From a virus, in IMG/VR virus record IMGVR_UViG_3300020463_000080, positions 1 through 31,469 of that record: a stretch of 31,469 nucleotides of DNA, one strand, 5' to 3'. The notes under the pieces were generated by a model, which saw only the letters and a program-made list of their open reading frames with translations, was not told the origin of the DNA and made no database searches. The position numbers and the translations under genes were made by a program. This document shows, in pieces, positions 1,292 through 6,355 of this stretch; the stretch's first letter is position 1; every line of letters begins with the position of its first letter.

Positions 1292-4200
1292 CTATTTAGA
1301 TTTTAGTTCATTTATTTCTTTTTTCAATTCTTTTATTGATTCAATAAGTAATGGAACTATTTTCTCATATTTTACTGCTTTGTAACCATCATCTCTTGTA
1401 TCTACGAGTTCTGGCATTATTTTTTCAATTTCTTGTGCAATAACACCATAATCCTTGCCTTTATAAATATTTTGTTTTTCTTCGTTCCAATCAAAAATGT
1501 TACCACTTATTTGAGAAACTTTATCTAAAGCTCCTTTGATTGGTTTAATATTATCTTTTAATCTTTCATCCGATGATGCATATGCAACTATATCTCCACC
1601 TGCGTTAATATTGTTAGCTACTCCTAAACCACCACCGATTTTAACTGCACCAGTTGTTTTGGAAGTTGAATTAGTTGTATTAGAAAATTCTATTGCAGTT
1701 GAGGTTGTTGCTCCTCTACCCGTTACTGTTGCTAAAGTATCCGATTCAGCAGTTAAGTAATCAGCTGCATCGGCAATATAAATTGGGGCCCCCATATTAC
1801 CATGAGAAGTACATTGGTAATAAAGAGTGTTAGGTGCGTTCATTGGAACATCAAATGTCAAAGTTGTATTGTTACCTGCATCTTGATTTGTTACACCATT
1901 ATTATATTGTGTACCTGCAGAACCATTTGTAGTTGATTGAATTCTAAATGGATGTCCACCTGATTTGTTTGTGAATCTATATTGTTGACCTCTTGTTAAG
2001 TATATAGCTGGGTCACTTGAACCAGTTAAATGACCTGGGCCAGTGAATGTATAGTGGTTAGAACCATCTGCACCTAATATCCATTCTGCAGTATGAATTG
2101 CAAGAGATGCAGTTTCTGAGAATGATGAAGATAAGAATGTTTGTTGACTTGAACCTGAGATTATACCACTTGGTAGAATTGCAGTTACATTACCACTTGT
2201 TACTGTACCTAATGTTGTTAAATTACTATCACCTGGATAAGTAGTTGCATCTGCTAAGTTAAATGCTGGAGTTGCATCTGATGAACCTAAGTCTACAGAT
2301 ACTCCACCGAATGAAACTGATTTATTAGTAATACTTGCACCATCCACTTGAGATGACCCACTAATTACTGTTTTAGCATCCAACCTTGTATCTACATTAG
2401 CATCAAAGTTTGTAATACTATTTGCGTTTACTTGAGATGAGCCACTAATTACAGTTTCTTCATCTAATTTTAGTTTTACTCTTGCATCTGTATAATATAA
2501 GTTACTTGAATGTTCTGAAACATCTGCAGTATTGAATCCTGTCTTATCTGCATTATCTAATACTACTTGTGAAGAACCACTAATTACTGTTTTTGCATCT
2601 AATCTCGTATCTACATTCGTATCAAAGTTTAGGATAGTGTTTGCGTTTACTTGAGATGAGCCAGAGATTACTGTCTTAGCATCTAATCTTGTATCAACAT
2701 TAGCATCGAAGTTTGTAACTGAATCTGCGTTAACTTGTGAAGAACCACTAATTACGCCAGTTGGAAGTTTTGAAACTAATGTTCCATCTGTTATTAATTC
2801 TGATTCAGAACCTAATTTTCCTGCTTTCCAATAATCATTACTTGCATCCCATAATAATGAACCACTTATGGTTGAACTACCTGTTGCATCTTTTGTTAAA
2901 ATACCACTTGTAGTTGCAGAACCACCATAATTAAGTTCTATGATATTATCACCAATAGTAATATTGTTTGTAGATGTATAGTTTGTTTCACCTCCAACAT
3001 TTAAATTACCTGGTATAGTAATTGTATCATCTGAATCACCAATCGTTGCTGTACCTAAGTTTGAATTAAGTGCAGTTTTAACATTTGTAGTAGTTGCATA
3101 TTTGTTAGTTGAACCTTCTGTTACATCATCAGTATTAAATCCTGTCTTATTTGCATCATTTAATACTACTTGAGATGAACCACTTATTACTGTTTTCGCA
3201 TCTAATCTCGTATCAACATTGGTATCGAAGTTTGTTACCGAATCAGCATTTACTTGTGATGAACCACTAATTACTGTTTTTGCATCTAATCTTGTATCTA
3301 CATTGGTGTCAAAATTCGTTATCGAATTAGCATCTACTTGGGATGAACCTGAAATTACACCATCGGCATCTAATTTTAATTTTACTTTTGCATCTGTATA
3401 ATATTGATTCGTTCCCTCTGAAAGATTCGTTGTACTAAATCCACCAAGTGATATTTGTGATGAACCACTAATTACAGTTTTTGCATTTAATCTATCATCT
3501 ACATTCGTATCAAAGTTTAGGATAGTGTTTGCGTTTACTTGTGATGAACCTGAAATTACAGTATCAGCATCTAATTTTGCTTTTACATTCGTATCAAAAT
3601 TTGTTATCGAATCAGCATTTACTTGTGATGAACCTGAAATTACTGTTTTTGCATCTAATCGCGTATCAACATTAGCATCAAAGTTTGTTATGTTATTAGC
3701 ATTTACTTGTGAAGAACCACTAATTACACCATCTGCATCTAATTTTAATTTTACTTTTGAATCTGAGTATTGGTTTATATTACTATAATTTGTTGTACTT
3801 GCAACATCAATTTGAGATGAACCACTAACTACACCATCACTTACAGTAAATGTTATATTTGCAGCACCACCTTGATTTAAAGTAAATGAACCTCCACCAT
3901 CTAATCCTGCACCTGCAGTAAGAGTAACATTCGAATTGTTAACACTACCACCTCCTAATGTAGTAACAGCAGTTGTAAAGTGTGTTGAGCCAGTATCTAT
4001 GTTAAGAGTAACATCACCAGAAACTCCACCACCACTTAAACCTAATCCAGCACCAACGGCAGTAATATCACCACCACCAGAAGCTACAATCGCATCATTT
4101 ACTGCTGCAGCGGTTGGTACAACAGTTGAATCTCCAAATATAGAACTTGTAACATTAAAGAATGCTGCAGTTCCAAGAGAACCAGTATGTGTTGCAAATT

Positions 4201-6355
4201 GGTCAAGTCTTGTATTTATCGAACCAGTTGAAACTGATAGTTGAGTTAATCTATCGTTTTGTGTGTTATTAATTGTATCGTTACTTGCAGTATACGAGTT
4301 TAATGATGTATTTGAGTTAGATGCAGTAAATGAATTTAATGAAGTATTTAAAACCTCATCATCTAAATATTGTTTATCAATAACAGTACCTTGCCAAACA
4401 CCTGTTCCTATTGTACTTACAGTTGTAATTGCTGATTGTAAGAAGTGTTCACCTGCAACATAGTTCTCTGTAGTATCGTGGTCTATTTGAGATGAACCAC
4501 TAATTACGCCAGTTCCACCAAATAATACTTCATCTGTAATACTTCCTCCTAATGATACTGAAGTTCCGCTGATGGTAAAAGATTTATTAGTAATTGCAGT
4601 ACCATCAACTTGAGATGAACCAGAGATTACAGTTTTAGCATCTAATCTTGTATCAACATTAGCATCAAAGTTTGTTACCGAATCAGCATTTACTTGAGAT
4701 GAACCAGATATTACTCCATCTGCATCTAATTTTAATTTTACTTTTGCGTTTGAAAATTGATTTATATTAGCATAGTTTGTAGTTGATGCTACATCTATTT
4801 GTGAAGAACCAGATACAAGTGTTGGTTTACCTGTAATATTTGCGTAAGCAACTGCATCTGCGGTTAATCCAGTCAATCCACTACCATCTCCTTTGAATAC
4901 TGATGCAGAAACATCTGTATTGAATCTAAAGTTTTGGTCTGCATGATTCCATACTATTGATTTATTAGCACCATCAACAGTTAATCCTGCTCCATTTGCT
5001 GCAGAAGAATCTGCTGCTCCACTTGCTACTAAAATATTTAAATCCGCAACATTAAGTGTATTGGTATCTAATGCGGTTTGAGTACCTTGTACTGTTAAAT
5101 TTCCTAATACTGTTACATTTGAACTGTCTAATGTTATTGCGGTATCAAAAGAACTTGTAAATGAGTTTAGTGAGGTGTTACCATTTGATGCTGTAAATGA
5201 ATTTAATTCGTTTAATATTCCAACCACTTGAGATGAACCACTAACTACTGTTTTTGCATCTAATCTTGTATCTACATTGGTATCAAAGTTAGTAACTGAA
5301 TCAGCATTTACTTGAGAAGAACCACTTATTACACCAGTTGGTAAAACTGCAGGGATTTGGCCTGAACCACTTATTACACCAACCCCACCGAATAATACTT
5401 CATCTGTTATAGTACCACCAAGTGAAACCGCAGTACCACTTATTGTGATTGAATTGTTACTAATTGCAGTACCATCAACTTGCGATGAACCACTAATTAC
5501 AGTTTTCGCATCCAACCTTGTATCAACATTGGCGTCAAAATTTGTTACTGAGTTAGCGTTTACTTGTGAAGAACCACTAACCACACCAGTTGGTAAAGAA
5601 CTAACTATTTGTGCAGAACCACTCAATACACCCTTAGTATCTATTCTAGCATCTACATTAGAATCGAAGTTTGTAACTGAATCTGCATTTACTTGAGAAG
5701 AACCACTTATTACCCCTAAAGTGTTAAGTGTTGTGGTACTGATGTAAGAACCAGTATTTGCTTCTATTTGTCCTAATCTACCATCAAAAGATGATGTTGT
5801 ACTTTCTATATTTGTGAATTTTATATTTGCAGATGCAGTATGAGTATTAATTAACCCTATTGCTACATCATTGGATGCGGTATATGAATTTAAAGGATTT
5901 AAATCTGAACCACTTATGAATCCGAATGCGGTAATTTGTGCAGAACCAGATAAGTTTGTTTGACTAGTTATTACTGTACTTGTTGCGAATATTGTTCCAA
6001 CATGAAGGTCTTTCCATTTTTTTGTAGATGAACCTAAATCGTATGCGTTTGTTGATTCTGGTATAAGAGATGAACTTAATGAACCTTGTACAACAATATT
6101 ATCACTTGCCTCGTCTCCTAAAAATAATTGTCCTCCGATTCTTATATCTCCACTTGCAGAGATACTTGATGCAGTGATATCTCCATCAATCCAAAGATTA
6201 CCATGATTTTTTTGTTCTAATTTTGTTAGAGTTATAATATCGCCAGAACCTGATAATCCAACTACTAATGATGCCGAATCATCATTGATGAATGGTTCTC
6301 CGTAAGAAAGTGATGAAGGAGATGAACCTCTCCTCAGTTGTATAATAGCCGCCAT
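1292..6355 (-). CDS. Giant repetitive tail fibre with cupredoxin-like and S74 chaperone domains
   Basis: 1687 residues. The N-terminus (MAAIIQLRRG, then YGEPFINDDSASLVVG) is a phage fibre head. Roughly residues 210-1410 are a repeat field built on SGSSQ (23 copies by my count), often as VISGSSQVNADSVTNFD followed by NVDTRLDAKT. Two embedded modules recur in marine phage fibres: VADLNILVASGAAD (about 430-485) and IGDNIIELN...SGSLLWD (about 1130-1182). Residues 1423-1530 resemble a cupredoxin fold, with His1468, Cys1515, His1518 and Met1521 in the pattern of a copper site. The C-terminus (about 1592-1687) is a Peptidase_S74 intramolecular chaperone: SDERLK gives Ser1595 and Lys1600, followed by DYGVIAQEIEKIMPELV and a C-terminal helix. 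In the S74 family this domain trimerises the fibre and cuts itself off, so the mature protein probably ends near Ser1594. It follows a terminator and has its own promoter-like motif. Adsorption is the likely role; the target is unknown. Confidence 0.9.
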   Translation of the reverse strand: MAAIIQLRRGSSPSSLSYGEPFINDDSASLVVGLSGSGDIITLTKLEQKNHGNLWIDGDITASSISASGDIRIGGQLFLGDEASDNIVVQGSLSSSLIPESTNAYDLGSSTKKWKDLHVGTIFATSTVITSQTNLSGSAQITAFGFISGSDLNPLNSYTASNDVAIGLINTHTASANIKFTNIESTTSSFDGRLGQIEANTGSYISTTTLNTLGVISGSSQVNADSVTNFDSNVDARIDTKGVLSGSAQIVSSLPTGVVSGSSQVNANSVTNFDANVDTRLDAKTVISGSSQVDGTAISNNSITISGTAVSLGGTITDEVLFGGVGVISGSGQIPAVLPTGVISGSSQVNADSVTNFDTNVDTRLDAKTVVSGSSQVVGILNELNSFTASNGNTSLNSFTSSFDTAITLDSSNVTVLGNLTVQGTQTALDTNTLNVADLNILVASGAADSSAANGAGLTVDGANKSIVWNHADQNFRFNTDVSASVFKGDGSGLTGLTADAVAYANITGKPTLVSGSSQIDVASTTNYANINQFSNAKVKLKLDADGVISGSSQVNADSVTNFDANVDTRLDAKTVISGSSQVDGTAITNKSFTISGTSVSLGGSITDEVLFGGTGVISGSSQIDHDTTENYVAGEHFLQSAITTVSTIGTGVWQGTVIDKQYLDDEVLNTSLNSFTASNSNTSLNSYTASNDTINNTQNDRLTQLSVSTGSINTRLDQFATHTGSLGTAAFFNVTSSIFGDSTVVPTAAAVNDAIVASGGGDITAVGAGLGLSGGGVSGDVTLNIDTGSTHFTTAVTTLGGGSVNNSNVTLTAGAGLDGGGSFTLNQGGAANITFTVSDGVVSGSSQIDVASTTNYSNINQYSDSKVKLKLDADGVISGSSQVNANNITNFDANVDTRLDAKTVISGSSQVNADSITNFDTNVKAKLDADTVISGSSQVNANTILNFDTNVDDRLNAKTVISGSSQISLGGFSTTNLSEGTNQYYTDAKVKLKLDADGVISGSSQVDANSITNFDTNVDTRLDAKTVISGSSQVNADSVTNFDTNVDTRLDAKTVISGSSQVVLNDANKTGFNTDDVTEGSTNKYATTTNVKTALNSNLGTATIGDSDDTITIPGNLNVGGETNYTSTNNITIGDNIIELNYGGSATTSGILTKDATGSSTISGSLLWDASNDYWKAGKLGSESELITDGTLVSKLPTGVISGSSQVNADSVTNFDANVDTRLDAKTVISGSSQVNANTILNFDTNVDTRLDAKTVISGSSQVVLDNADKTGFNTADVSEHSSNLYYTDARVKLKLDEETVISGSSQVNANSITNFDANVDTRLDAKTVISGSSQVDGASITNKSVSFGGVSVDLGSSDATPAFNLADATTYPGDSNLTTLGTVTSGNVTAILPSGIISGSSQQTFLSSSFSETASLAIHTAEWILGADGSNHYTFTGPGHLTGSSDPAIYLTRGQQYRFTNKSGGHPFRIQSTTNGSAGTQYNNGVTNQDAGNNTTLTFDVPMNAPNTLYYQCTSHGNMGAPIYIADAADYLTAESDTLATVTGRGATTSTAIEFSNTTNSTSKTTGAVKIGGGLGVANNINAGGDIVAYASSDERLKDNIKPIKGALDKVSQISGNIFDWNEEKQNIYKGKDYGVIAQEIEKIMPELVDTRDDGYKAVKYEKIVPLLIESIKELKKEINELKSK
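2140..5715 (-). repeat. SGSSQ repeat field within the 1687-aa fibre gene
   Basis: In-frame coding repeats. Units of about 27-35 residues begin V-[IV]-SGSSQV and continue NA[DN]SVTNFD[AT]NVDTRLDAKT or variants such as DGTAITNKSFTISG. At DNA level the copies differ mostly at synonymous positions (for example tcaagt or tcacaa within SSQ), so the array is not a recent exact expansion. One related unit also occurs in the 1464-aa fibre. Confidence 0.85.

Follow-up and report, generated by a model that had tools for sequence, protein, structure and literature searches.

Introduction

Several phage tail proteins are loaded with iron. According to the available sections of PMC4901313 these include the phi11 receptor-binding protein, T4 gp37 and the P2 spike, and in phi11 the three-fold axis carries a single Fe(III), which His42 and His50 from each of the three chains coordinate. 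A Ferrojan Horse hypothesis for iron is described in the accessible part of PMC10892097. The domain that we describe here resembles the iron proteins (PMC4901313, same sections) in placing a metal site, in our case a predicted one, inside a fibre or spike, but it differs from phi11 in that each chain is predicted to have a site of its own, whose ligands include Cys and Met. A search of titles and abstract openings in the open-licence literature returned no paper describing a cupredoxin-type domain in a phage, which does not prove that there is none.

Type-1 copper sites hold their metal with high affinity and stabilise the protein fold around them, and they usually combine fixed ligands with a loop of varying length. 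We read the domain near the end of the tail fibre studied here as a cupredoxin with a complete predicted type-1 (blue) copper site made of His1468, Cys1515, His1518 and Met1521, and we give this reading, which draws on conservation and a structure model, a probability of roughly 0.68.

Results

The window, by which we mean the whole 31,469-base virus record that was analysed, has a G+C content of 33%. A protein scan found portal, terminase and major head protein matches in it; the terminase shares 56% identity with its counterpart in Microcystis phage Mel-JY01 and 55% with the one in Flavobacterium phage immuto, and the head protein has the same relatives. Searches of the 31,469 bases for Rfam families and tRNAs found none. 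Thirteen of 20 further proteins scanned (window 3-31132) had no PHROG match at 1e-3, so the phage group is poorly described.

The fibre is encoded on the minus strand at 1292..6355, an ORF of 1687 aa that matches the tail fiber protein family phrog_5668 (E 8.6e-30) and contains 1 Cys, 14 His and 4 Met. Across window 1292-6355 the protein is mostly made of short repeats of the type GVISGSSQVNADSVTNFDANVDTRLDAKT, and the region N-terminal to the cupredoxin domain is likewise mostly repeat-like. Toward the other end, residues 1595-1651 (1403..1573, minus strand) form a Peptidase_S74 intramolecular chaperone (Pfam PF13884, E 3.2e-17), with the motif SSDERLKDN at fibre residue 1594. In known fibres such chaperones are lost by self-cleavage, the cut falling at a Ser, and we take Ser1594 to resemble that residue. 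The cupredoxin domain, residues 1423-1530 (108 residues; 1766..2089, minus strand), is supported by the translation, an AlphaFold2 model and PDB fold matches. It ends about 60 residues upstream of the self-cleaving chaperone, so once the fibre has matured it would lie close to the distal end that faces the host, where it appears to be the main compact recognisable domain.

An earlier note made from the DNA letters had described residues 1423-1530 as cupredoxin-like, and the strings it cited, GGHPFRI, LYYQCTSHGNMGAPIYI, YLTRGQQYRFTN and TTLTFDVP, are all present in the translation. The first predicted ligand is His1468 (domain H46; 1952..1954), which lies within GGHPFRI. The others fall in the loop CTSHGNM, a Cys-x2-His-x2-Met arrangement: the predicted thiolate ligand Cys1515 (C93; 1811..1813), His1518 (H96; 1802..1804) and the predicted axial ligand Met1521 (M99; 1793..1795). 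All four codons are on the minus strand, the assignments come from sequence and conservation, and the 1687-aa fibre has no cysteine besides Cys1515. A profile search of the other window ORFs found no second copy of the domain.

By fold and profile, the modelled domain is a member of the cupredoxin superfamily, as the earlier note had proposed; the model is confident and the matches are dominated by copper proteins. The AlphaFold2 model (window 1754-2116, built on an 80-sequence alignment) has nine strands, a mean pLDDT of 92.4 and a pTM of 0.85. Among the matches listed by Foldseek against the PDB (50, E <= 0.001), all 50 were cupredoxin-superfamily copper proteins or SufI, the list running over nitrite reductases, multicopper oxidases, rusticyanin, plastocyanin, pseudoazurin, amicyanin and SufI. 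SufI is itself a copper-free relative. VIA-align gave Z >= 8 for 186 of 999 chains, the best being the first domain (residues 24-137) of the Hyphomicrobium nitrite reductase 2dv6 (Z 11.4, rmsd 2.4 A, 99 residues aligned). When the alignment profile was run against PDB sequences, 41 of 42 matches (E <= 10) were cupredoxins or multicopper proteins, with 8a14 as the exception; the best three, 6hbe (E 2.9e-4), 2vmj and 9cck, have the same Cys-x2-His-x2-Met loop, and their alignments pair its Cys, His and Met with those of the domain.

Single sequences carried less of this signal. The Pfam family Copper-bind (PF00127) scored the window domain at 14.2 bits (E 0.062), below its curated cut-off of 21.2, and we therefore do not file the domain there; a single-sequence NCBIfam search left it unmatched, and single-sequence phmmer against the PDB returned only titin and other chance matches. 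Among the 80 alignment members, 10 match Copper-bind and 18 match PF25489 (At5g54830-like domain), the latter possibly a eukaryotic branch of the same family. The domain presumably already carries a cupredoxin label in InterPro-type resources. In BFVD the window model matched 'Beta-sandwich proteins' of Pithovirus LCPAC302/304 and Marseillevirus LCMAC201/202 (E 1.5e-7 to 3.4e-6).

The earlier note had worried that the spacing to Met was shorter than in plastocyanin, a concern that falls away because an identical Cys-x2-His-x2-Met loop occurs on the same fold in two solved nitrite reductases, as CSIHPYM in 6hbe and CTPHPFM in 2vmj, and also in amicyanin. Identity to the best fold match, 2dv6, is only about 16%, and the window domain sits inside a phage fibre whereas amicyanin and the nitrite reductases are periplasmic. 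In small blue copper proteins, amicyanin included, Asn follows the first His ligand; the window domain has Pro47 in its place, and for this reason we rejected filing it as an amicyanin. Plastocyanin, pseudoazurin and rusticyanin, which are among the fold or profile matches, share the fold and the order His ... Cys, His, Met, but in plastocyanin four residues separate His from Met, against two here (2plt alignment). Multicopper oxidases such as CueO and the small laccases resemble the domain in fold and in having His-Pro at the first ligand. Their motif, HPFH or HPFHIH, brings in type-2/3 histidines, whereas in the HPFRIQ of the window domain R and Q replace them. Without these His pairs the domain would not be expected to form a trinuclear site or to act as an oxidase, and we rejected a multicopper oxidase filing. 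Equating the domain with viral nirK was also rejected, since PMC8115048, in the sections available, describes a complete NirK that has two copper motifs and is encoded beside norB.

The domain extends well beyond this record. It matches phrog_677 (E 6.7e-37, PHROG positions 307-410 of 412) and, by tblastn, 353 of 50,697 phage records, and in a similarity-retrieved set of 23 phage records, hand-picked from 120 of the 353, 24 of the 25 domains, from fibres or gp9-type proteins, retain the four ligands, the exception being RN05-S; the motif is thus more than a chance pattern. By name the 353 records comprise 270 Synechococcus, 54 Cyanophage, 21 Prochlorococcus and 8 others, nearly all of the carriers being cyanophages. 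The full fibre also aligns with phrog_677 over positions 44-411, across the fibre repeats (E 8.4e-19). In cyanomyoviruses the domain is the C-terminal end of gp9, annotated as the baseplate wedge tail fibre connector (gp10-like in Syn9). The gp9 connectors of PHROG 677 share the domain at positions 307-410 of 412 but are only about 410 aa long; the protein studied here is instead a long fibre made of repeats and ending in an S74 chaperone region. A model of the 406-aa gp9-type protein from the Syn9 record, built on a 22-row alignment, reached a poor pLDDT of 59.5 overall, with block means of 78-88 in the cupredoxin part. In the cyanopodoviruses P-GSP1 and P-SCSP2 the domain is close to the N-terminus of a hypothetical protein. 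The cryo-EM study of P-SCSP1u (PMC10575957) resolves fibre N-termini and not the distal parts, and in its available sections copper is mentioned once, as grid material.

Relatives also occur in bacterial genomes, with profile matches in 3 of 299, 13 of 200, 17 of 296 and 6 of 199 genomes of four sets, although some of the rows assigned to bacteria (e.g. L355, L344) could stem from phage contigs that were sorted into metagenome bins. The weakest of these matches that we examined were ordinary cupredoxins or oxidases. Among relatives with a profile E below 1e-8, all four residues are kept in 29 of 29 rows, in loops that read by eye as x2/x2, Cys-x4-His-x2-Met or Cys-x2-His-x3-Met. Several, again by eye, are short and consist of just the domain behind what looks like a signal peptide or lipobox.

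Among relatives the predicted ligands are kept or lost as a set. From 458 domain hits we took 293 different stretches, each 70 aa or longer, and grouped them into 142 clusters at 80% identity, 130 of them readable at all four sites. Of these, 116 have His, Cys, His and Met (a count inflated by the many relatives retrieved with patterns that included HPF or CxxHxxM residues, the pattern-free sets being smaller), one has Gln in place of Met, and 13 lack both His and the Cys. None of the 130 has lost only one or two of His, Cys and His. Twelve further clusters were dropped for a gap; several of them lack His or Cys, and one, 'HN--', could be a partial loss. When sites were shuffled among rows, 20,000 trials gave at most 3 joint losses against the 13 observed, a statistic that ignores the relatedness of the rows. 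The claim that the four residues are conserved is therefore supported, in an all-or-none form among the 130 clusters, and free replacement of His, Cys or Met in homologues was not what we saw. Joint gain and loss of His, Cys and His is, as far as sequences can tell, the behaviour of one metal site.

The 13 degenerate clusters fall into about five independent lineages, FA[VTI]M (8), NSFM, YSAM, ESSA and SADH/NATL (2, both in the gene that follows gp9); the lineage of 8 was retrieved with a ligand-less query. That lineage is formed by relatives of RN05-S, with Phe, Ala, Val/Thr/Ile and Met at the ligand sites. The degenerate clusters nevertheless keep Pro47 (12 of 13), Tyr91 (11 of 13), Gly34 and Phe39 (11 of 12 each), and Pro27 in at least 11 of 12-13 rows; since other fold-signature residues stay, the fold does not seem to need the two His and the Cys. 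Natural lineages that drop the site also suggest that it is useful and not essential.

The first 150 loci, some of which had been selected with motif patterns, yielded 177 hits and 151 distinct rows. All four sites are readable in 142 of these rows, and 137 of the 142 are HCHM; Pro47, after the first His, is retained in 145 of 150 rows. Among 281 distinct stretches the loop is x2/x2 in 279 (4 of which print as x1/x3 owing to a double His) and x4/x2 in 2; the Cys-x4-His-x2-Met loop is found in L115 and L159, with the ligands retained. In L113 (an ORF from base 1 on the plus strand, residues 32-142) Gln replaces the axial Met (CHSHTGQ). An axial Gln is the ligand in copper stellacyanins.

Discussion

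The joint behaviour of the ligands and the modelled fold make a metal site of type-1 make-up very probable, with four side chains that we predict to converge, and the metal would probably be copper. If so, the tails of hundreds of marine phages may carry copper. A different metal such as zinc or iron, or no metal in the virion at all with the residues kept for folding, seems unlikely to us. Zn(II) can occupy the site of a cupredoxin that is produced in bacteria, and apo-cupredoxins keep their fold, apoplastocyanin (2pcy) being among our fold matches. Iron, moreover, is the metal reported in phage tails (PMC4901313, available sections). If the residues served folding, one would not expect ligand-less copies to retain the rest of the fold signature, as they do, and the swap of Met for Gln in L113 gives the ligand of copper stellacyanins. 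Two His with a Cys-Met pair are typical of copper rather than of zinc or iron.

What a bound metal would do is a more tentative matter. The least demanding reading, and among functional ones the most likely, is that copper acts as a stabilising staple in an exposed host-contact domain, a role that we regard as possible. The phage would make the domain metal-free in the cytoplasm, and on or after lysis the domain would take up copper from the periplasm or from seawater. The metal would pin the ligand loop and stiffen the exposed domain, and the stiffened distal domain would then share in contact with the host surface.

Bolder readings give the metal an active part. One is that Cu(II), loaded in oxic seawater, is reduced at the host surface or in the periplasm and so alters the fibre and commits the phage to infection. 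A complete type-1 ligand set that is kept as a unit while loops vary, as in electron-transfer cupredoxins, would suit such a trigger, as would the presence of the domain in cyanophage fibres and gp9-type connectors. In T4, contact with the host is signalled through the fibres and gp9-type baseplate connectors. But no partner for the domain is known, and RN05-S-type lineages lack the ligands in their tail-fibre proteins, so a redox step would have to be dispensable there; we consider this reading rather improbable. Still more speculative is its broad form, in which redox-active blue-copper sites would sit at the host-contact end or baseplate connector of marine phage tails, those of many isolated cyanomyoviruses included, taking up seawater copper after lysis and having their oxidation state read at the host surface, so that adsorption or tail firing is gated. 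If that were true, virions would also be a pool of bound ocean copper.

It is also conceivable, though very doubtful, that the domain, once loaded, passes for a copper carrier and that a metal-uptake receptor of the host binds it, a copper version of the Ferrojan Horse. Iron in phage tails is known (PMC4901313, available sections), and the domain is distal in the window fibre. No such receptor is known, however, the domain also occupies the gp9 connector position in cyanophages and so is not confined to fibre tips, and a test of the iron version showed no effect of TonB or FeoB loss (PMC10892097, accessible part). We rejected, as highly improbable, a role for the lone Cys in inter-chain disulfides with incidental conservation of His and Met: one Cys per chain would suit a presumably trimeric protein, as fibres are expected to be, but Cys is lost jointly with both His in 13 of 13 clusters, never alone, and small non-fibre bacterial proteins keep the same residues.

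If the predicted sites do hold copper, abundant marine phage tails bear a transition metal in a redox-capable site, where the cited tail cases hold iron. Phage adsorption would then be tied to the copper chemistry of seawater, and virions would join the ocean's copper ligands. The naturally ligand-less RN05-S-type lineage offers a ready-made control. Copper would also give a testable biochemical property to many 'hypothetical' fibres and to the C-terminal domain of cyanophage gp9. In cyanomyoviruses the gene after gp9 (L151, L161, L164-L167, L170-L172) carries a second, diverged copy of the domain, for example GHPMQFSTT ... YYYCKVHRYM, and at several loci a further domain stretch, degenerate or partial in appearance, follows this second copy.
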